Assembly: GCA_025656675.1 (NCBI GenBank)
Contig: JAHXHN010000001.1
Location: 711,501 to 775,500, forward strand
Source: Candidatus Thiodiazotropha sp. (ex Codakia rugifera)
GTDB taxonomy: Bacteria; Pseudomonadota; Gammaproteobacteria; Chromatiales; Chromatiaceae
Direction: 5' to 3'
Length of the DNA: 64,000 bases
Shown here: in pieces, positions 29,347-39,398 of the stretch
Numbering within the stretch: position 1 is the first letter of the stretch
Layout of the letters: the number at the start of each line of letters is the position of its first letter
Made by a program: the position numbers and the translations under genes
The notes under the pieces: generated by a model
What the model was told of the DNA's origin: nothing
The model's database searches: none
The model's input: only the letters and a program-made list of their open reading frames with translations

Positions 29347-30180
29347 TCAGTCCCGAATGACGATCTCCACGCGACGATTCTTCAGGCGACCGGCACTGGT
29401 GCTATTGTCCGTAACCGGTGTGGTCTCGCCCAGTCCGAGGGTATCGATCCTGGAACCGTCTACACCGGCCTGCATTAAGGCATTCTTGACAGATAGCGCA
29501 CGTCTTTCTGACAGGTCCTGGTTGTAGGCATCACTGCCTACGTTATCGGTGTGGCCCTCCACCAATACGGTTTTTTCCGGATATTCAGCCAGGAATTTTG
29601 CCAATTTATCGATGGTGCTCATGGCGCCTGGCAAAAGCTCGGTTTTTCCAGTGGAGAAGAGTACGTCACCGAGGGTCATGACCATGCCCCGCTCGGTCTT
29701 CTTTGCCTGAAGCTCGGCAAGTTCCTGGCGTAGCGCTTCAGCTTTGGCTAGCGCGTTTTCCCGCTCCATCAAGGCTGCCTCCTTATCGCGCAAGGCCTCA
29801 TCCTTTGCATGTTGTTCGAGCTGAATCTCTATCTCTCTCGCCTTCAGTCGTTCCTTGTTTTTTATTTCGCCCAGCTCTTCGAGTTTCGCTGTGGCCGCCT
29901 TACGCGCGGCAACTGACTGAGCAATCATAACCCGTGTCTTACCGACATATGCGAGCGATGTCATATCTTCTTCTGTTTCAGCGGTTGCGGCACGGGTAAG
30001 GGCTTTACTGGCACGTTCCAGTTCAGGTGACGCATAGCGGAGTAACTGCTCATTTTGTTTGGCTTCTGCATAGGCTTGCTCAGCATCGGTCAGTGCCTGG
30101 TTCTTTTGCATGCTGCTGCAACCACTCAGCAGTAGTGCCAGTGAGGTTGCGGCGATCAGATTGATCATTGTTCGAGACAT
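29347..30180 (-). CDS. OmpA-family lipoprotein with N-terminal DUF4398 domain
   Basis: The 277-residue protein has a lipoprotein signal peptide with lipobox LLSGC (C21), an alanine/glutamate-rich helical DUF4398 domain (about 30-150; QALTDAEQAYAEAKQNEQLL, YASPELERASKAL) and a C-terminal OmpA/MotB peptidoglycan-binding domain (about 165-277) with VEGHTDNVGSDAYNQDLSERRA and GRLKNRRVEIVI. It would anchor the outer membrane to the cell wall. It is 36 bases downstream of a second DUF4398 lipoprotein on the same strand, so the two probably act together. Confidence 0.9.
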   Translation of the reverse strand: MSRTMINLIAATSLALLLSGCSSMQKNQALTDAEQAYAEAKQNEQLLRYASPELERASKALTRAATAETEEDMTSLAYVGKTRVMIAQSVAARKAATAKLEELGEIKNKERLKAREIEIQLEQHAKDEALRDKEAALMERENALAKAEALRQELAELQAKKTERGMVMTLGDVLFSTGKTELLPGAMSTIDKLAKFLAEYPEKTVLVEGHTDNVGSDAYNQDLSERRALSVKNALMQAGVDGSRIDTLGLGETTPVTDNSTSAGRLKNRRVEIVIRD

Positions 30181-30216
30181 TGTAAATCTCCCCTTATCAT
30201 TGGGTGTGTTTATGGT

Positions 30217-30612
30217 TTACCTACTCCTGGCACGCATGATCTCTTCACGCAACACCTGAATGCTGTTTTGCAACTCTTTTACGGCCTTCTCCGTATCTGT
30301 TTTGGCTGCAATGGCTTGTGCCAGTTCAGCATCGGCCTGGGCCTCTTCTGCGAGTCTTCTTGCTTCGTCAAACTCCTCCTTGGCAATAGCAGTTTCTGCG
30401 CGTTTCAGTTTCTGTTTGGCACGATCCACAGCGACTGGTGCATGCATCAGTGTCTCTTGACTATCGGCAGCAATAAGCGAGGTTTTTGCTGCTGCCATTT
30501 CAGCAACCGGTTCCGGGGTTGAGCTACAGCCAACGAGAGAGGTAAAAATCACAGCAGTGACAAAGGGGAGTGCGCGATTTCGCCTTTGTGGGGGAGTCTT
30601 ACAGATCATCAT
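30217..30612 (-). CDS. DUF4398 lipoprotein
   Basis: The 131-residue protein has a long basic n-region, a hydrophobic segment and lipobox LVGC (C29). The mature part is almost wholly helical (EMAAAKTSLIAADSQ, DRAKQKLKRAETAIAKEEFD, EARRLAEEAQADAELAQA), matching DUF4398, and ends in an arginine-rich coil. It may form a periplasmic coiled coil with the adjacent OmpA-like lipoprotein, whose N-terminal half is of the same family. Function unknown. Confidence 0.75.
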   Translation of the reverse strand: MMICKTPPQRRNRALPFVTAVIFTSLVGCSSTPEPVAEMAAAKTSLIAADSQETLMHAPVAVDRAKQKLKRAETAIAKEEFDEARRLAEEAQADAELAQAIAAKTDTEKAVKELQNSIQVLREEIMRARSR

Positions 30613-31050: not shown

Positions 31051-31635
31051 TTAATGAAGGTCTTTTATCAACGAATCTCTGACAGGCGATCCGAGCAGTT
31101 CGATTGTGTGGTTATAGGCTGGGTGATCAATACCTGCCGATAGGGCTGCCCCCCCCTTCAATGCATCGATCATCGACTGACTCAGTTCGAAGCGGAGAAA
31201 GTGTACAGCTGATGTCTTCTCTTCAGTGGTGCGTTGCAGATCTTCATTGGCGATGGGTCTAACCTTTTCGAAACCATCGACTTCAATCCAGATGGCCGTT
31301 TCGATGCCGATCAGTCTTGCCAGCGCCTGTTTCCGCTCCTCCACGTCGTGGTACTCCATCATGAAGGTGGCCTTCCAGTTCATTCCATCTGGAATCAATG
31401 GGTTATAGACATCTAACTCATCCTGGATGCCCTGTTGCTCAAAGATTCGTTCAATGCGCAACATCTCCTGTACCTGGTACTGCATGGTGAGCTCATCTTC
31501 GAAATAGAGGGCCGCATGGGGACCTATAGCCAGCCGCCGGCTCTTCTTGTGGTCGATTACACGAGCCCTGAACTCAGGTCGGATACGGGCATACTCTTCG
31601 AGACTGTATAGGTCAGAATGTGAAAGATGGGTCAT
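31051..31635 (-). CDS. DUF3501 family protein
   Basis: The 194-residue soluble protein starts HLSHSDLYSLEEYARIRPEFRARVIDHKKSRRLAIGPHA, followed by LYFEDELTMQYQVQEMLRIERIFEQQGIQDELDVYNPLIPDG, the core DUF3501 pattern, then RFELSQSMIDALKGGAALSAGIDHPAY. ATG 31635 follows an AGGAGAT site; the five-codon extension is rejected. In many proteobacteria DUF3501 genes sit next to rubrerythrin and a GlpC-like Fe-S protein, as here, but no biochemical role is established. It is the last gene of the four-gene operon. Confidence 0.85.
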   Translation of the reverse strand: MTHLSHSDLYSLEEYARIRPEFRARVIDHKKSRRLAIGPHAALYFEDELTMQYQVQEMLRIERIFEQQGIQDELDVYNPLIPDGMNWKATFMMEYHDVEERKQALARLIGIETAIWIEVDGFEKVRPIANEDLQRTTEEKTSAVHFLRFELSQSMIDALKGGAALSAGIDHPAYNHTIELLGSPVRDSLIKDLH

Positions 31636-31693
31636 CAATATCTCCTGCAATGAGTTCTTTCGATTGTTAGGCGCTAATGGGTTTTAGCAGGCC

Positions 31694-31981
31694 CTATTCG
31701 TGCGCAATGGGTTTATCGGTAAAGAGGTAATCTTTGAGCTCTTTGTCAAAACTGGGATCTTGTCGTCTTATCCATTCCAAGACCATTGCAGCATGCTCTT
31801 TCTCTTCATCTCTGTTGTGCGCAAGGATAGCCCGTAATTCAGTGTCGCTGCAGGCATCAACGCGTTGGTTGTACCAATCGACAGCCTCCAGCTCCTCCAT
31901 TAACGAGACGATGGCCCGATGCATGTCCCGGGTTTCATTACTCAGTTGCTCCACAGGTTCGTGATAGCCTTCGTTAGACAT
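31694..31981 (-). CDS. Encapsulated-ferritin-like (EncFtn) protein without cargo tail
   Basis: The 95-residue two-helix protein closely resembles Rhodospirillum rubrum EncFtn in the segments IVSLMEELEAVDWYNQRVDA and AHNRDEEKEHAAMVLEWIRR. The ferroxidase residues are kept: E30, E60 and H63 correspond to E32, E62 and H65, with W36-Y37 next to the site. EncFtn oxidises Fe(II) at a dimer interface in a decameric ring and normally delivers iron into an encapsulin shell. Here the protein stops at FTDKPIAHE, just after the helical domain, so no encapsulation peptide is present, and no encapsulin gene is in the window. It lies 15 bases after the Fe-S gene. Confidence 0.85.
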   Translation of the reverse strand: MSNEGYHEPVEQLSNETRDMHRAIVSLMEELEAVDWYNQRVDACSDTELRAILAHNRDEEKEHAAMVLEWIRRQDPSFDKELKDYLFTDKPIAHE

Positions 31982-31995
31982 GATTTTCTCCTTGA

Positions 31996-33339
31996 TTAAA
32001 TACCGTAGGCCTTGCGTACCAGGGTGATCGGATGTTCTGGCTGACGACCGTCACGCAGACCGTTTTCAATATGTTGGCCTGCCATTGGGCAATCACTCCC
32101 ATAGTGATCCGCTTCGGCCTGTATGACCCGGTTGACAACGGGTTTGCCGATTTTCATCGCATGCTGATGGAATTCGCTTTTAACCGCATAAGTGCCGTCG
32201 TGACCTGAACAACGCTCAATGACCGTGACCTGCGTGTCCGGGAGCAGCGTGAGCAGCTCCTTTGTTTTGGCCCCAACATTCTGTACCCGCTGATGACAGG
32301 CTGCATGATACGCTACCTTGCCCAGACCCTGTTTGAAGTCGTTCTTTAGCAGTCCCTCTTTGTGGCGAATAATCAGGTATTCAAAAACATCAAAGATGGC
32401 CTTTGACACCTTTTGTACTGCCGGGTCATCCGGGAACAGCAGGGGCAACTCCTGTTTGAACATCAGTGCACAGGAGGGAACGGGTGCGACAATGTCCCAG
32501 CCATCATCGACCAGCTTGGCCAGTATAGGAATATTGGCATTCTTTGCGACCTCCACGGCCTCAAGATTACCCAGCTCCAGTTTCGGCATACCACAACACT
32601 GTTCTTTCTCTGCGATGGTGACCGGGATGTCGTTATGTTCGAAGACGGCAACCAGGTCTTCCCCCAGATGGGGTTCGTTATAGTTGCCGTAACACGTACT
32701 GAACAGGGCAACCTTGCCTGTGGTGGTGCCGGCAGGTGTACCTTCTGCCGTTCTGTTTTTTCGATCAGCCAGACGCTTTCGTAGCAGCTTGCTGTGAAAT
32801 TCGGGGAGTTTGGCTTCTGGATGCACACCGAGGGAATGATCCAGAATCTCACGGAAATTCTTAGCCTTGTTGAACCTGTTCACGACACCCGCAACGATTG
32901 GGATACCTGCCAGTTTACCAAGGTTATCGGTGCTTGTAAGGAGGCGGTCCCGCAACCTGACGTCACCCTTTTGATACTTGACCGCTTTTCCCCTAAGCAT
33001 GAGATGTGGAAAGTCGATATTCCACTCATGTGGGGGTACGTAGGGACACTTGGTCATGTAACAGAGGTCACAGAGGTAGCAATGATCAACCACCTGCCAA
33101 TAATCATTTTTATCGACACCATCGACCTCCATGGTTTCCGACTCGTCAACCAGATCGAACAGGGTTGGGAAGCTTTTACACAGGCTGACACAGCGTCTGC
33201 AGCCATGGCACAGGTCAAACACCCGTTCCAGCTCTGCCATTAGCTTCTCTTCGTTGTAAAAATCCGGGTTCTTCCAATCGATGGGATGCCGTGTCGGGGC
33301 CTCCAGATTGCCTTCTCTCTGGCCGGTGGGTGCTGCCAT
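31996..33339 (-). CDS. GlpC/HdrD-like Fe-S oxidoreductase with two CCG domains
   Basis: The 447-residue protein starts at ATG 33339; a longer frame to 33408 runs through a hairpin and is rejected. Two [4Fe-4S] ferredoxin motifs are visible: C44-x2-C47-x2-C50-x3-C54 (CHGCRRCVSLC) and C87-x2-C90-x2-C93-x4-C98. Two CCG (DUF224) domains follow, with EQCCGMPKLELGN and a first cysteine in YHAACHQ plus ERCSGHDGTYAV. Such proteins pass electrons between quinones or thiols and a partner. Its place in a rubrerythrin operon suggests it supplies electrons for peroxide reduction, which is inference. Confidence 0.85.
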   Translation of the reverse strand: MAAPTGQREGNLEAPTRHPIDWKNPDFYNEEKLMAELERVFDLCHGCRRCVSLCKSFPTLFDLVDESETMEVDGVDKNDYWQVVDHCYLCDLCYMTKCPYVPPHEWNIDFPHLMLRGKAVKYQKGDVRLRDRLLTSTDNLGKLAGIPIVAGVVNRFNKAKNFREILDHSLGVHPEAKLPEFHSKLLRKRLADRKNRTAEGTPAGTTTGKVALFSTCYGNYNEPHLGEDLVAVFEHNDIPVTIAEKEQCCGMPKLELGNLEAVEVAKNANIPILAKLVDDGWDIVAPVPSCALMFKQELPLLFPDDPAVQKVSKAIFDVFEYLIIRHKEGLLKNDFKQGLGKVAYHAACHQRVQNVGAKTKELLTLLPDTQVTVIERCSGHDGTYAVKSEFHQHAMKIGKPVVNRVIQAEADHYGSDCPMAGQHIENGLRDGRQPEHPITLVRKAYGI

Positions 33340-33367
33340 TGTGCTATATACTCCTGAATGAGGCATC

Positions 33368-33387
33368 GGGCGGCCCGCAGGCCGCCC
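33368..33387. other. Intra-operon GC hairpin
   Basis: GGGCGGCC (33368-33375) and GGCCGCCC (33380-33387) pair perfectly around a CGCA loop; CATGGG/CCCATG immediately to the right forms a second small dyad. It lies between the rubrerythrin stop and the Fe-S gene start. There is no T-run, so it is likely an mRNA-stabilising or processing element that raises rubrerythrin over the downstream genes. Confidence 0.6.
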
Positions 33388-33433
33388 ATGGGCTGAACCT
33401 GAACCCATGAGCTCAGGTTACCATGCAGTGAAC

Positions 33434-33850
33434 TCAGTCCATTTCGTCCAGGGCTCTCTGGTAACGGTTGGCGTGAGAACGCTCAGCTTTTGCAAGGGTC
33501 TCGAACCAGTCTGCAACCTCATCGAATCCTTCGTCACGGGCCGTCTTGGCCATACCAGGGTACATGTCGGTATATTCGTGGGTTTCACCGGCAACAGCTG
33601 CTTTCAGGTTGTCACCGGTTGGACCGATCGGCAGACCGGTTGCAGGATCGCCACACTGTTCCAGGTATTCCAGATGGCCGTGAGCATGGCCTGTCTCTCC
33701 CTCTGCGGTTGAGCGGAACAGGGCAGCGACGTCATTGTAGCCCTCAATATCGGCTTTGGCGGCGAAATAGAGGTATCGACGATTGGCTTGTGATTCCCCT
33801 GCGAAAGCGTCTTTTAAATTTTGCTCAGTATTACTACCTTTGAGTTCCAT
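33434..33850 (-). CDS. Rubrerythrin lacking the rubredoxin domain
   Basis: The 138-residue protein has the rubrerythrin di-iron four-helix bundle: N-terminal [40 protein letters not shown], then [23 protein letters not shown] and the final [19 protein letters not shown]. These give the E, ExxH, E, ExxH ligand set. The C-terminal rubredoxin (two CxxC) found in classic rubrerythrins is missing, so electrons must come from another protein, perhaps the Fe-S protein next in the operon. It reduces hydrogen peroxide to water. An Irr-box-like repeat lies 68 bases upstream of the start. Confidence 0.93.
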
Positions 33851-33917
33851 ATCTGGTTCTCCGAAATGATGGTTATTGTGGAAAGAGACGTCGAGCCATA
33901 GCGGCTCTTCGCTGCTG

Positions 33918-33934
33918 TTTAGAATAGTTATAAA
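33918..33934 (-). promoter_or_regulatory. Irr/PerR-box-like operator before the rubrerythrin operon
   Basis: TTTAGAA-TAG-TTATAAA differs at one position from the rhizobial Irr (ICE) core TTTAGAA-N3-TTCTAAA and is also close to the PerR box TTATAATNATTATAA. It lies in the divergent spacer between the rubrerythrin operon and the Fur-family regulator. Confidence 0.55.
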
Positions 33935-34132
33935 ATTGATTGGAAGCTAATGGTCTTTTCAATGGTATTGATAGTCTATGCCTAATAATCCCTGGACAGG
34001 TATTCAGCTCAGATCAGCGCCTATCGATGACCTTTATCAAATGGCTGCTTTGGTGACCAACCAGAAGCGATATCGATCGATAAATAGGGCTAGCCCTTGG
34101 CAATACCCTAGAAGAATACTTATACTCTCCAG

Positions 34133-34567
34133 ATGGAAACGAACATCAGCCAATCGAGACAGCAACAGCAGTGCATTGATAAGCTGCTTAACGCCCATGG
34201 GGTCAATTTGACCCGACAGCGGCGTGTTATTGCAGATACCCTCTTCGCACGTGATCAACATGTGACAGCAGACAAGCTGTTTGAGGCGGTTAACAACAAT
34301 GGCGCCAAGGTATCCAAAGCCACGGTATACAATACACTTGGCTTGTTTGTCAGAAAGGGGCTTGTACGGGAGATCTTCATTGATGCCACCCGTACCTTCT
34401 ACGATTCCAATACCAGTCGCCACCACCATTTCTACAATGTCGATACCGGTGATCTGATCGATATGAAAGAGCGATTGGCACCACACTTTATTGATCAGGA
34501 TCTCCCGGATGGAACGGCAATGGATATGGTAGATCTGGTGATCAGGGTTAAAAACAAGGCCCCTTAA
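34133..34567 (+). CDS. Fur-family regulator of Irr/PerR type
   Basis: The 144-residue protein has the Fur winged helix (about 12-88) with GVNLTRQRRVIADTLFA, HVTADKLFEAV and recognition helix KVSKATVYNTLGLFVRKGLV. The dimerisation part carries H97-H98-H99 in SRHHHFYNVDTGDLI, the HHH haem/iron motif of Irr, but neither the CxxC structural zinc pairs nor the HHHDHx pattern of Fur. Only one cysteine (C14) is present. It is therefore closer to Irr than to Fur, Zur or PerR. It is divergent from the rubrerythrin operon and 378 bases ahead of a cytochrome c peroxidase gene and probably controls both. Confidence 0.85.
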   Translation: METNISQSRQQQQCIDKLLNAHGVNLTRQRRVIADTLFARDQHVTADKLFEAVNNNGAKVSKATVYNTLGLFVRKGLVREIFIDATRTFYDSNTSRHHHFYNVDTGDLIDMKERLAPHFIDQDLPDGTAMDMVDLVIRVKNKAP

Positions 34568-34719
34568 AGCCAATCCGGCTTATATGTAAACGGACGGTCA
34601 TTCCTGTGCAATCAGGTATGACGCCTCATTTTTTTATCACTTCTCTGAATCCTGTTTCTGCAGCATAGCCAATTCGTCAATTTCCCTTCCCTATCAGACG
34701 AAACAGTTGATCTGCATCA

Positions 34720-34748
34720 TTGTTCTAGAATTAGACTAATTCTAATAT
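34720..34748 (+). promoter_or_regulatory. Promoter with palindromic operator before the peroxidase gene
   Basis: TTGTTC (34720-34725) and TAATAT (34743-34748) lie 17 bases apart. The spacer is occupied by the perfect dyad TAGAATTAG-A-CTAATTCTA (34726-34744). A window within it (34730-34746) also fits TTAGA-N-TAA-TTCTAA, an Irr-box-like match with a few changes. A repressor bound here would cover the promoter. Confidence 0.65.
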
Positions 34749-34945
34749 CTACCACGCTATGTGTAGGGTATTTCTGTAGCCTAGCTGACAACAGAGATCG
34801 TTGGATCGCTTTCAGAATAGAAAAATCCAATCAAATACCCCAATGGCCTAGCTATCACCTCCTTCAGGTAACGTGATCCAGAAGGGTGTGGTTTAACCAA
34901 ATGAGGGGATGGTTTTCCAGCCTTATAACTATCAGGTAAAAGGAT

Positions 34946-35935
34946 ATGACATTTAAACGAACTGCCATTTTTTCTCTTCTGTTGGGCTTATCTCCAACGC
35001 TATTTGCAGTAGATGAACCGATTCAACCCATTAAGCCGGTACAAAGTATCAATCTTGGTCAGGTTGAATTGGGTAAGAAGCTCTATTTCGATCCCCGCCT
35101 CTCCAAGTCCGGTTTTATCTCTTGTAACTCCTGCCATAACTTGAGTATGGGCGGAACGGACAATCTCAAGACATCGATCGGCCATAATTGGCAACAGGGT
35201 CCAATCAATGCCCCTACTGTACTTAACTCCAGCTTAAATCTGGCGCAGTTTTGGGATGGTCGTGCGGCTGATTTAAAGGCTCAGGCTGGTGGACCGATCG
35301 CCAATCCAGGTGAAATGGCGGCCAGTCACACGCTGGCAATCGATGTATTGGCATCGATCCCTGAATATGTCATGGAGTTCAAGCAAGTCTTCGGCACAAA
35401 TAAGATCACTATTGAGGAAGTGACTCAGGCGATAGCAGAGTTTGAAAAGACCCTGGTGACGCCAAACTCCCGATTTGATCAGTGGTTGCTCGGAGAGAAG
35501 GCGGCTTTGACCGCTGATGAGTTGACGGGATATAAACTGTTCAAAGAGAGCGGTTGTGTCAGTTGTCATAACGGCGAGGCTGTCGGTGGCAACTCCTTCC
35601 AGAAGATGGGTATTGTTGAAGCATACAGCACCAAGAGTTCAGCCGAGGGCCTGAGTGGCGTAACGGGGAAGGATGCCGATCGCTTTAAGTTCAAAGTGCC
35701 AACACTGCGGAATGTGGAGATGACATACCCCTATTTCCATGATGGTGAGGCAGGGACCTTGACCGAAGCGGTTGATGTGATGGGACGTCTGCAACTGGGA
35801 AGGCAATTCAGTGATCAGGAGAATAGTCAGATTGTGGCGTTCCTGAAAACCTTAACGGGTGATCAGCCTGCTTTCCAGATGCCGATTCTTCCTCCCTCAA
35901 CGGATAAGACGCCAGTACCAAGACCTTTCGACTGA
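34946..35935 (+). CDS. Di-haem cytochrome c peroxidase
   Basis: The 329-residue protein has a Sec signal peptide (1-21, ending LFA) and two c-type haem sites, C60-N-S-C63-H64 and C204-V-S-C207-H208, in the spacing of bacterial CcpA/MauG proteins. The segments FDPRLSKSG, PTVLNSSLN, FWDGRAADLKAQAGGPI and VPTLRNVEMTYPYFHDG are family hallmarks; the last holds the conserved metal/haem region. It reduces hydrogen peroxide in the periplasm with electrons from cytochrome c. It is downstream of the Irr-like regulator and has its own operator-bearing promoter. Confidence 0.95.
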   Translation: MTFKRTAIFSLLLGLSPTLFAVDEPIQPIKPVQSINLGQVELGKKLYFDPRLSKSGFISCNSCHNLSMGGTDNLKTSIGHNWQQGPINAPTVLNSSLNLAQFWDGRAADLKAQAGGPIANPGEMAASHTLAIDVLASIPEYVMEFKQVFGTNKITIEEVTQAIAEFEKTLVTPNSRFDQWLLGEKAALTADELTGYKLFKESGCVSCHNGEAVGGNSFQKMGIVEAYSTKSSAEGLSGVTGKDADRFKFKVPTLRNVEMTYPYFHDGEAGTLTEAVDVMGRLQLGRQFSDQENSQIVAFLKTLTGDQPAFQMPILPPSTDKTPVPRPFD

Positions 35936-36056: not shown

Positions 36057-37040
36057 TTACTGCTTCCGGGCATACTGAGCCGCACCATTCAAAGCGGCTT
36101 TGTCATTGAGAATCACCCTGACCGGCATTGCTTCCATGATATGGCGCATCCGGCCTTTGGCAAGAAAGGCCTCCATGAACAGCCCCTGTTGCAGAATTGG
36201 CAGGATTTGTGGTGCTATCCCTCCTCCCAGGTAGACTCCTCCCGTGGCCATGATTTTAAGGGCGTGGTTACCCGCCTCCCTTGCGTATAAGCGGGTAAAC
36301 AACTCGAGGGATTCCCGGCACACTGGGTCAGCGGATTCAAGCCCTGCAGCGGATATCGCGGGTGCGGCGCCCATGTCATCCATCTTTTGCTGCAGCCATG
36401 TCGGTATCTCAGCCTCATGGTAGTGGATTAGATAGTTGTAGATGTTCTCCAGACCAGGACCCGATACCAGCCGTTCCCAACTGACATGTCCATAGCGTAC
36501 AGAGAGGGCTTGGTAGAGCGAGAATTCCAGGCTGTTGGAGGGGCTGAATTCACTATGCCCCCCCTCAGACGGGAAGGGGTGATAAGTACGACCATCCCAA
36601 TAGAGCCCTGCCTCTCCCAGGCCGGTACCGGCGGAGATAATCGAGCGATTGCCTGCTGCATTGTCAGCACCGGGATTGAGGGTGTAGATGTCACTGCTGT
36701 CTAGGACCTCAATACCCCAGGCGTTGGCTTCCAGATCGTTGAGCAGCCAGGTGGCTTCGAATCCGAACTGGCGGTTGATTTTCCGGGCAGAGACCTGCCA
36801 GGGTAGATTGGTTGTTTCGCAGACCTGGTCGATAACCGGTCCGGCCAGTCCAAAACAGGCCCGGTCGATCTCCTGTGCTGATGGTTGTTTGAGAAATTGT
36901 TGCAGTATGGCCTCAATGGCGTCATAGGCCTGACTGGAGTAGGTCTGTTCCAGGATAGGATTGAGGGGTGAAGCGGGGGTTGAGTGATAGAGTGCAAGAC
37001 GGGTGTTAGTGCCACCGATATCACCAGCCAGAATCTGCAT
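36057..37040 (-). CDS. glk: Glucokinase
   Basis: The 327-residue product starts MQILAGDIGGTNTRLALY, with the phosphate-binding GDIGGTNT, AGPVIDQVCETTNLPW and WLLNDLEANAWG (catalytic Asp in the ND), then ISAGTGLGEAGL and FPSEGGHSEF, all typical of E. coli Glk. It phosphorylates glucose with ATP. ATG 37040 follows a GAGG site; a four-codon extension to 37052 is rejected. The C-terminal region with MATGGVYLGGGIAPQILP closes the family pattern. It may serve glycogen turnover, with PFK further right. Confidence 0.93.
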   Translation of the reverse strand: MQILAGDIGGTNTRLALYHSTPASPLNPILEQTYSSQAYDAIEAILQQFLKQPSAQEIDRACFGLAGPVIDQVCETTNLPWQVSARKINRQFGFEATWLLNDLEANAWGIEVLDSSDIYTLNPGADNAAGNRSIISAGTGLGEAGLYWDGRTYHPFPSEGGHSEFSPSNSLEFSLYQALSVRYGHVSWERLVSGPGLENIYNYLIHYHEAEIPTWLQQKMDDMGAAPAISAAGLESADPVCRESLELFTRLYAREAGNHALKIMATGGVYLGGGIAPQILPILQQGLFMEAFLAKGRMRHIMEAMPVRVILNDKAALNGAAQYARKQ

Positions 37041-37235
37041 GCTGAACCTCAATTGTTAATACTTTTGGTACTCATTGATTCACGGCCATTAACCCATGAG
37101 CGATGCAATCGGTCGATCCATTGTCGCCTCAGTCATGCTGTCCAGCACGGAATCAGGATAATTCTAACGGAAATAGCGGTGAATCGGGTATGGGATGTGG
37201 CTTTTCCAGGGCCAGGATGAGTAATATACCGAGTT

Positions 37236-39398
37236 ATGGATGTCTCGCCGATTCTCGATCCCCTGAATGATGCACAACGCGATGCGGTAACAGCGCCAGT
37301 TGGCAATCTACTGGTTTTAGCTGGTGCCGGCAGCGGGAAGACCCGTGTGTTGGTGCATCGAATCGCCTGGCTGTTGGCCGTGGAGGCCGCCTCTCCCTGG
37401 TCAGTTTTGGCGGTCACCTTTACCAATAAGGCGGCCAAGGAGATGCGTCAGCGCATCGAGGCCTTATTGGGGCAGCCACTCGGTGGTATGTGGGTTGGCA
37501 CCTTTCATGGATTGGCGCATCGGCTGTTGCGCGCCCACTGGAATGAGGCCGGACTGCCTCAGAGTTTTCAAATCCTCGATGCGGATGATCAGTTTCGTCT
37601 TATAAAGCGACTGCTGAAGAGCCTTGATCTCGATGAGGCCCGCTGGCCTCCTCGACAGATACAGTGGTTCATCAATGGACGAAAGGATGAGGGGTTGCGT
37701 GCGCAGCATCTGGATGATGGTGGTGATCCCTACCAACAACAAATGATCCGACTTTACAGTGAATATCAGGCCGCCTGCGAACGGGGAGGGCTGGTCGATT
37801 TTGCTGAGCTGTTACTGCGTGCCCATGAGTTGTGGCGTGAGCGGCCGGATGTACTGCAACACTATCAGGAACGTTTTCAACATATCCTTGTTGATGAGTT
37901 TCAGGATACCAACTCGATTCAGTATGGCTGGTTGAAGTTACTGGCGGGTCCTCGAAATAATCTTTTTGTGGTGGGTGATGACGACCAGTCGATTTACGGT
38001 TGGCGTGGTGCGCGGGTAGAGAATATCCAGAATTTTCAGACTCACTATCAGGCAGCAACCTTGGTGCGGCTGGAGCAGAATTACCGTTCCACCGGCAATA
38101 TCCTGAATGCAGCCAACGCATTGATCAACAACAACCCTTCACGTCTGGGAAAACAGTTGTGGACCGAGGATGGCGAGGGAGAGCCAATCAATCTCTATGC
38201 CGCCTTCAATGAAATCGACGAGGCGCGTTTCGTTATAGAGAGGATTCGACAGTTTATCGATGAGGGCAATAGGCGTGCTGAAGCAGCGATTCTCTATCGC
38301 ACCACAGCACAGTCTCGTCTGTTTGAAGAAGCACTGATTCAAGGGGCTATCCCCTACCGGGTCTATGGTGGATTGCGTTTTTTCGAGCGTGCAGAGATCA
38401 AGGATGCCCTGGCTTATCTGAGACTGCTTAGCAATCCGCAGGATGATGGCGGTTTTGAGCGTGCGGTCAATATGCCGCCAAGAGGTATTGGGCCGAAGAC
38501 CATGGATGCAGTGCGTGCTCATGCCAGAGATTTTTCCTGTTCGCTCTGGCAGGCGGCAGGTGAGTTGCTGAAGGGTGGCGCCATGCCAAAGCGAGCGACC
38601 AGTGCACTCCTGGGCTTTCTTGATTTAATCGAGGAGCTTCGAGTGGATACGGCGAATCTCGCACTGCCTGAGAAGGTTGAGCAAGTGCTCAATGCCAGTG
38701 GTTTACCCGCCCACTTTGAGAAGGGTCGGGACGGTAAGGGAATCGACCGTAAGGAGAACCTCGAGGAGTTGGTTAATGCCACGCGTCAGTTCGGTTATGA
38801 AGCCGATGAAGAGGTAGGGTTGGACGAACTTTCCTCGTTTCTTTCTCATGCTGCACTGGAAGCCGGTGAAGCTCAAGGTGACCCCTCCGATGATTGTGTC
38901 CAGCTGATGACCCTGCATTCGGCCAAGGGTCTGGAATTTCCACTGGTCTTTCTGGTCGGTATGGAAGAGGGCCTGTTCCCTCACAGTATGTCGGCTGACG
39001 ATCCTGCTCGTCTGGAGGAGGAGCGGCGGCTCTGTTATGTGGGGGTGACACGTGCCATGCAGGTACTCTATCTTTGCCATGCAGAGAGCAGGCGGTTGCA
39101 TGGCAACGATAGCTACCCCCTACCCTCCCGCTTCATTCGTGAAATGCCTTCGGAATTGATGCGTGAGGTACGTGCTGGACCCGCTATCAGCAAACCAATT
39201 TATGGTGGTGCTCCCTATCTGGAAACCGGAGAGTTGACTGGCTTTAATTTGGGTCAGCGAGTTCGCCACGCCAAGTTTGGCGAGGGTGTGGTATTAAATG
39301 CAGAGGGCCAGGGTCGTAGTGCCCGGGTTCAAGTCAATTTCGAGGATGTCGGCAGCAAATGGTTGGTAGTAGCCTATGCCAATCTATCACCCTGCTGA
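37236..39398 (+). CDS. uvrD: DNA helicase II
   Basis: The 720-residue SF1 helicase acts in nucleotide excision and mismatch repair. Motifs: Q motif LNDAQRDAV, I AGAGSGKT, Ia TFTNKAAKEM, II VDEFQDTN, III GDDDQSIYGWRGA, IV LEQNYRS, V VQLMTLHSAKGLEFPLVFL and VI EERRLCYVGVTRAM. The C-terminal region with GQRVRHAKFGEGVVLNAEG is the UvrD/PcrA Tudor-like RNA polymerase-binding domain. Length matches E. coli UvrD (720). It is transcribed alone. Confidence 0.96.
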   Translation: MDVSPILDPLNDAQRDAVTAPVGNLLVLAGAGSGKTRVLVHRIAWLLAVEAASPWSVLAVTFTNKAAKEMRQRIEALLGQPLGGMWVGTFHGLAHRLLRAHWNEAGLPQSFQILDADDQFRLIKRLLKSLDLDEARWPPRQIQWFINGRKDEGLRAQHLDDGGDPYQQQMIRLYSEYQAACERGGLVDFAELLLRAHELWRERPDVLQHYQERFQHILVDEFQDTNSIQYGWLKLLAGPRNNLFVVGDDDQSIYGWRGARVENIQNFQTHYQAATLVRLEQNYRSTGNILNAANALINNNPSRLGKQLWTEDGEGEPINLYAAFNEIDEARFVIERIRQFIDEGNRRAEAAILYRTTAQSRLFEEALIQGAIPYRVYGGLRFFERAEIKDALAYLRLLSNPQDDGGFERAVNMPPRGIGPKTMDAVRAHARDFSCSLWQAAGELLKGGAMPKRATSALLGFLDLIEELRVDTANLALPEKVEQVLNASGLPAHFEKGRDGKGIDRKENLEELVNATRQFGYEADEEVGLDELSSFLSHAALEAGEAQGDPSDDCVQLMTLHSAKGLEFPLVFLVGMEEGLFPHSMSADDPARLEEERRLCYVGVTRAMQVLYLCHAESRRLHGNDSYPLPSRFIREMPSELMREVRAGPAISKPIYGGAPYLETGELTGFNLGQRVRHAKFGEGVVLNAEGQGRSARVQVNFEDVGSKWLVVAYANLSPC

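Follow-up and report, generated by a model that had tools for sequence, protein, structure and literature searches.

A probable peroxide-defence locus in Candidatus Thiodiazotropha, an Irr-linked form of the aerobic rubrerythrin system that carries a short EncFtn-like protein

Within a 64,000-nucleotide stretch of Candidatus Thiodiazotropha sp. (ex Codakia rugifera) (assembly GCA_025656675.1, contig JAHXHN010000001.1, positions 711,501 to 775,500; hereafter the window), taken from a genome of 4.65 Mb in 19 contigs, lies a six-gene locus that, on balance, we read as a peroxide-defence locus built on the aerobic-type rubrerythrin trio: a rubrerythrin (RBR), a GlpC-like Fe-S protein (RFO) and a DUF3501 protein. 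To this trio would be added a shell-less, short EncFtn-like protein (s-FLP), control by an Irr-like regulator, a stem-loop after rbr and an arm formed by a cytochrome c peroxidase (CCP). The trio is a known conserved core, and the locus is an Irr-linked, s-FLP-bearing form of the aerobic rubrerythrin system; its new parts, as judged from sequence, appear to be the operator with its regulator, an EncFtn without a shell and the stem-loop that follows rbr. Gene content and order, the lack of a PF04454 encapsulin, the conservation of the box, its covariation with the Irr-like gene and the excess of stem-loops are computed observations.

The six open reading frames (ORFs) named by an earlier note on this DNA were all confirmed in place, and the Pfam matches agree with its names (E-values: DUF3501 3.2e-73, EncFtn-like 5.3e-46, CCG 5.3e-14 over two stretches, Rubrerythrin 8.4e-29, FUR 9.8e-19, CCP_MauG 3.1e-61). 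The features are as follows (aa, amino acids).

31051-31635, minus strand: DUF3501 gene, 194 aa from its ATG (PF12007, 246 bits; relative 3fjv; the first-listed start is a TTG at 31650).
31694-31981, minus strand: s-FLP, short EncFtn-like predicted ferroxidase, 95 aa, without a targeting peptide (PF22277, 155 bits; 3k6c).
31996-33339, minus strand: RFO, GlpC-like Fe-S protein, 447 aa from its probable start (CCG matched twice; ORF to 33408).
33368-33387, minus strand: intercistronic stem-loop, 8 G-C pairs, 4-base loop (hairpin search).
33396-33419, minus strand: second stem-loop, closer to rbr (hairpin search).
33434-33850, minus strand: RBR, aerobic-type rubrerythrin without a rubredoxin domain, 138 aa (PF02915).
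33919-33933, unstranded: predicted Irr-type box TTAGAATAGTTATAA, 68 bases upstream of RBR (genus alignment, pattern search).
34133-34567, plus strand: Irr-like Fur-family regulator, 144 aa, with an HHH motif and without CxxC (profiles, alignment).
34707-34722, unstranded: FNR-like site TTGATCTGCATCATTG (conserved block in a 20-sequence alignment).
34731-34745, unstranded: predicted Irr-type box TTAGACTAATTCTAA, upstream of CCP (genus alignment, pattern search).
34946-35935, plus strand: CCP, di-haem cytochrome c peroxidase, 329 aa, with a hydrophobic signal-like N-terminus (PF03150; 1iqc; hydropathy).

An aerobic-type rubrerythrin system was reported by Cardenas, Quatrini and Holmes in 2016 (PMC5114695), who found rubredoxin-less RBR lying together with DUF3501 and with a COG0247 protein that they named RFO, counted 185 genomes in which all three co-occur and put RFO forward as the electron donor that compensates for the missing rubredoxin; the trio is reported from protist mitochondria too (PMC7050145). 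Our locus shares with that system the identical three families, their co-location and the RFO-for-rubredoxin proposal, its di-iron domain lacking rubredoxin and its DUF3501 and COG0247-type RFO lying alongside. What sets it apart is an s-FLP placed between RFO and DUF3501, together with an Irr-like regulator and its boxes, the post-rbr stem-loop and the linked CCP, none of which was found in the consulted part of that paper. The mechanism of the earlier note, a peroxide-reducing chain coupled with iron handling, is reasonable and was, going by the same part of PMC5114695, largely anticipated in print.

Besides the window's, 55 clusters were fetched, 21 in the genus and 34 outside it, 52 of them from genomes found by DUF3501 (all such genomes except the window's own) and 3 via s-FLP. 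RBR, RFO and DUF3501 lie on a single strand and in a single order in all 55, which bears out the conserved order anticipated by the earlier note. Because the clusters were chosen mostly by DUF3501, this count means that RBR and RFO accompany DUF3501, and is not a frequency of the trio; DUF3501 itself occurs in 21 of the 349 genomes of a phylum sample, the window's own counted. Co-occurrence beyond this genome, likewise expected, extends to the trio in the 34 loci outside the genus and partly to s-FLP, and fails for the CCP linkage; the idea of a general six-gene unit is not supported (outside the genus, CCP 0/34, regulator 6/34, s-FLP 7/34). The four-gene operon is present also in Sedimenticola selenatireducens DSM 17993 (L240) and Sulfuricella sp. 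T08 (L190).

A strong hairpin (score of at least 20), sought within 100 bases downstream of the rbr stop, is present in 21/21 genus clusters and 27/34 other operons (48/55), compared with 4 to 7% of shuffled rbr regions; one follows RFO in 0/21 and 3/34, respectively, and lies inside RFO in 0/21 and 2/34, with the same counts inside DUF3501. Since hairpin sequences differ between lineages, it is structure, not sequence, that recurs after rbr. In the window the stronger-paired stem, 33368-33387, reads GGGCGGCC-TGCG-GGCCGCCC, and the whole 94-base rbr-rfo region has a z of -2.28, with 5 of 200 shuffles as good. Such a stem-loop would permit an excess of RBR over RFO and the remaining products, and in a related clam symbiont a rubrerythrin transcript is reported among the most abundant (PMC13137333, Table 1, median transcripts per million 11,389, 11,097 and 16,627). 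Two points temper this reading. A hairpin of equal strength follows DUF3501 as well, in 4/21 genus and 10/34 other clusters (14/55), and equating the published transcript with this rbr is only suggestive, because the window's genome has five PF02915 matches; neither DUF3501 nor an Fe-S oxidoreductase was found beside rubrerythrin in the consulted part of PMC13137333, whose table omits hypothetical proteins. The stem-loops might well act as partial terminators and do no more than uncouple rbr from rfo, a serious contender that falls somewhat short of persuading us: a T-rich tail (at least 5 T among the 8 bases that follow the stem) is seen in 6/34 outside operons, but the other 28 and the window's lack it, and the window's stem is absent from the list of a simple terminator scan.

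The Fur-family gene that diverges from rbr in the window encodes a protein whose nearest NCBIfam models are IrrA and Irr, at 116 and 110 bits; as these scores lie below the cut-offs of 150 and 170, we call it Irr-like, not Irr. It has an HHH motif and no CxxC, Irr models score above Fur and PerR models, and its single cysteine, C14, is followed by Ile, with no cysteine-based haem regulatory motif. Its H43, D91, H97, H99 and D110 align with PerR-type ligands (2fe3 alignment), roles that we assume for these positions, and among solved structures its best relative is 5nl9, entered as a Fur-family regulator and, as we take it, Leptospira PerR. Together with a PerRA score of 88 bits, these two points speak for PerR-like control, whereby the protein would be no haem sensor but would sense H2O2 through Fe(II) oxidation in a site of PerR type, and the genes would be plainly peroxide-inducible. 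We regard this as possible and rather doubtful, since the Irr models score higher, the HHH includes the HXH given as the defining haem site of Irr (PMC7762939), and a profile of the regulator and its homologues picks out a group clearly separated from ordinary Fur. When the nine-regulator profile (A2) was run over 51 genomes, five of which had supplied rows, the matches split into those of at least 138 bits and those of at most 77. Only some Irr proteins are described as having the cysteine-based motif, and Irr itself is described as confined to Alphaproteobacteria with few exceptions (PMC7762939). The Irr-like group is present in 17/31 DUF3501 genomes, of mixed classes, versus 1/20 genomes without DUF3501, all of the window's class. 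A similar regulator lies in the fetched neighbourhood of 6/34 outside loci, upstream of rbr and in the same direction in five, downstream of DUF3501 and on the other strand in the sixth (L110).

In an intergenic alignment of 20 sequences (the window and 19 genus loci), most have TTAGAATAGTT(A/C)TAA ahead of RBR; CCP is preceded by TTAGACTAATTCTAA or a variant, directly after TTGATCTGCATCATTG, which we take to be an FNR-like motif. With at most one mismatch, a TTAGAANNNTTCTAA-type box occurs in the RBR region of 17/20 genus and 11/34 outside loci, compared with 1 match in 340 tests outside the genus for ten permuted palindromes, and in 0/34 outside regions before RFO and 0/34 before DUF3501; with at most two mismatches, the outside RBR regions give 15/34 versus 13/340. 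Of the 19 CCP-bearing loci, 16 allowed a clean cut of the CCP region, and these regions have the box in 11/16 at one mismatch and 16/16 at two. Outside the genus, box (at most two mismatches) and Irr-like gene vary together (two-by-two counts 14/1/3/13 of 31 genomes, Fisher 3.9e-5). The RBR operon and CCP are each probably preceded by a predicted operator. Where the earlier note had one haem/iron-sensing regulator over the locus, a Fur-family, Irr-like protein with this probable pair of targets stands, and its scores stay below the Irr cut-offs.

Several results pull the other way. Three genus loci (L086, L092, L103) have no good RBR box (4 mismatches). The pattern TTAGANTANTTNTAA has two exact matches in the whole genome, both at this locus, which hold by construction because it was drawn from both sites; at one mismatch it finds 14 places genome-wide, fewer than the 38 of a reversed control, so a wider Irr regulon is neither claimed nor denied. 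The table of box against Irr-like gene weakens to 10/1/7/13 (p 0.007) at no more than one mismatch, and among descent-corrected pairs about 3.8 of 5 agree and 0 disagree (p 0.125), a test that is too small. In Rhodobacter sphaeroides, moreover, the majority of affected genes had higher levels when Irr was present than when it was absent, and ccpA fell under H2O2 (PMC3413700).

The same report gives R. sphaeroides Irr two predicted boxes, at mbfA and ccpA, both bound in vitro, and the irr mutant a higher H2O2 resistance (PMC3413700). The parallel is close: in both cases one predicted target belongs to the rubrerythrin family, the other is a cytochrome c peroxidase, and each bears an Irr-type box. 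Unlike there, the regulator here is found outside Alphaproteobacteria, its gene adjoins its targets, and one target is a soluble aerobic-type RBR operon instead of the membrane-bound MbfA. We propose that the Irr-like regulator would bind two boxes of the TTAGAA-N3-TTCTAA type, one ahead of the rbr operon and one ahead of ccp, and would most likely repress these iron-rich products when haem or iron is short, or until it is inactivated. This sense and signal we infer from the Irr literature, itself mixed, and given the R. sphaeroides data repression is not certain.

CCP has a CCP_MauG domain (PF03150, 207 bits) and two CxxCH motifs, and its nearest solved chains are CCPs, not MauG; the first, 1iqc (307 residues, 2.9e-143), is presumably from Nitrosomonas europaea. 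Compared with that di-haem peroxidase, which it resembles in the CCP match, CCP here is linked to an rbr locus and an Irr-type box. It adjoins the cluster in 19/21 genus loci, the two exceptions being contigs shorter than 4.5 kb; beside the 34 clusters outside the genus no CCP of more than 60% identity was found, and one locus (L106) has a 34% match nearby. CCP is thus a lineage-specific neighbour of the cluster and, having an FNR-like site as well, would form a periplasmic arm linked only in this genus.

The protein called EncFtn in the earlier note, s-FLP, aligns with 3k6c along all 95 residues. Its E29, E30, E32, E60 and H63 are invariant in 11 aligned rows and are the counterparts (5da5 alignment, offset 2) of the R. 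rubrum EncFtn ferroxidase ligands named in PMC5012862. Family and ferroxidase residues therefore hold, for a short form that has no targeting tail and sits in a genome without PF04454 encapsulin. The tail reads LFTDKPIAHE, and a GSL-type targeting tail was found in none of 80 relatives (the best 80 of at least 528 in named genomes). PF04454 encapsulin was not found in 30 of 31 s-FLP genomes, the window's among them (29 of the 31 at least 90% complete; a 41-aa fragment in G026 left out), nor SrpI-like PF19307 in any of the 31, by a search without a positive control. The sole s-FLP genome with PF04454 (G038; L166, G038:C5) offers an internal contrast: directly beside the encapsulin it has a second EncFtn, with LGVGSLKEGNT in its tail, and its s-FLP lies in the rubrerythrin operon. 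Elsewhere, G318 and G175 have EncFtn with a targeting tail and encapsulin alongside; G037, G107, G054, G292, G295 and G351 have EncFtn without such a tail (56-66% identity) and no PF04454 encapsulin; and two of four genomes with distant EncFtn (G088, G108, G159, G310) have encapsulin, located elsewhere. At loci L127-L131 the EncFtn genes encode 95-105 aa, share 56-61% identity with that of the window and have no targeting tail; their genomes lack PF04454 encapsulin.

The closest described protein is Nitrosomonas europaea NE0167 (PDB 3k6c), an s-FLP or 'Non-EncFtn', which shares the full-length match, the 95 aa, the ferroxidase residues and the tail LFT(D/N)KPIAHE; the window's s-FLP differs in sitting in a rubrerythrin operon, in genomes without PF04454 encapsulin. 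A 2024 review, in its consulted part (PMC11202242), leaves undecided whether a sequence in the short tail binds the shell, and its table enters LFTD(E/N)KPIAHE as a targeting peptide that is putative and uncharacterised. Our result bears on this open point: since 30/31 genomes bearing the tail lack PF04454 encapsulin, a targeting role for it is unlikely. We considered s-FLP as encapsulin cargo and judge this unlikely; EncFtn sequence and ferroxidase residues are present, and neither a GSL-type tail nor a shell gene in the window's genome is. By its sequence, s-FLP apparently works without the usual protein shell.

How firmly s-FLP belongs to the trio is a separate matter. It lies between RFO and DUF3501 in 15/22 genus genomes (the window's and 14 of the 21 others), none of which has a second EncFtn over the cut-off; the other seven have no EncFtn over the cut-off, leaving aside a handful of weak matches (20-24 bits). 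Among the loci outside the genus, 7/34 have s-FLP in the cluster, or 4/31 excluding those fetched via s-FLP. On a quick tree of the 56 clusters its presence changes 7 times, and therefore loss, gain or transfer recurs; an internally deleted remnant in a same-genus genome (L088:7830-8000) has the look of loss in progress. It counts against a tight partnership that 74 of the 80 best relatives are not beside the trio (some contigs being short), that EncFtn genes outside the trio have no Irr box (0/99 regions, at most one mismatch) and that 7/22 genus members have no s-FLP. Given the first two of these, s-FLP is not an obligate partner of the trio. It might be a passenger, a small ferritin gene profiting from operon expression without functional coupling to RBR, in keeping with the 74 outside genes, beside which no specific other neighbour recurs, and with the 7 changes and the decayed copy. 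We lean away from this, since slot and strand are identical in 21/21 fetched clusters having s-FLP, plus the window, and EncFtn and DUF3501, each in 20 genomes of 348, are together in 6, more than expected (Fisher 3.8e-4; phylum sample, the window's genome and 10 sub-cut-off EncFtn matches left out, descent uncorrected); in 5 of these 6 the two lie apart. As a coupled component, s-FLP would have been inserted in the operon in this lineage and would oxidise or store Fe(II), curbing Fenton chemistry.

In agreement with the earlier note, RBR (138 aa) has PF02915 and weaker PF00210 matches only and no rubredoxin domain in Pfam. Its nearest solved chains are 9onm and 4di0, and those of its helix stretches that presumably hold the di-iron ligands are invariant in 16 aligned rows. 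Rubrerythrin- or ferritin-like frames with low PF02915 scores lie elsewhere in the window's genome (C6:146056-146472, C3:867353-867772, C1:1057360-1057734).

RFO, which the note had given two CCG domains, does match CCG in two stretches, the second of which reads CSG. Its nearest NCBIfam model is GlpC (236 bits, below the cut-off of 278), 15 cysteines are invariant in 56/56 rows, and its predicted fold resembles EtfD and HdrB. With EtfD (9ojn), HdrB (5odc, 8rwn), LutA (9a6l, an integrative model) and, by profile, GlpC it shares a ferredoxin-like part and two CCG domains; it differs from them in that no membrane segment was seen (highest 19-residue hydropathy 1.18), in its CSG and in having RBR and DUF3501 as partner genes. 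Its start is probably 33339 and not 33408, because the longer ORF overruns the stem-loop at 33368-33387. RFO as electron donor to RBR fits the predicted fold and the 15 invariant cysteines. For DUF3501, an AlphaFold2 model has a mean pLDDT of 90, and structure comparison gave no informative fold neighbour besides the solved relative 3fjv.

That RBR serves mainly iron handling or repair, with RFO and DUF3501 acting on another substrate and peroxide reduction incidental, is unlikely: published activity data for the trio were not found, DUF3501 has that lone fold neighbour and Thermoproteales retain RBR and DUF3501 without RFO, yet the helix stretches are invariant and the rubredoxin-less rubrerythrins sulerythrin and ferriperoxin are reported functional (both points on other organisms from PMC5114695). 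In the peroxide-defence reading, RBR would reduce cytoplasmic H2O2 with electrons that RFO, as an EtfD/GlpC/HdrB-type protein, would hand on from a reduced carrier (quinol, or thiol/ferredoxin), and DUF3501 would be a soluble accessory; these activities and the electron path are what we infer.

Around the cluster, OmpA-like and lipoprotein-like genes (29347-30612) and glucokinase-like and UvrD/Rep-like genes (36057-39398), all named from reading, adjoin it in many genus loci.

More broadly, and tentatively, Irr-type regulators may be standing controllers of aerobic-type rubrerythrin across Proteobacteria, also beyond Alphaproteobacteria; the short EncFtn family may be a ferroxidase that stands alone and needs no shell, with the trio as its one recurrent operon partner; and the whole may form one cytoplasmic peroxide/iron module in which rbr is over-produced via the stem-loop. 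In the consulted parts of published accounts of the aerobic rubrerythrin trio, no shown electron donor, named regulator or DUF3501 role was found. For this poorly understood defence system, the present locus offers a four-gene operon along with candidates for its operator and regulator.

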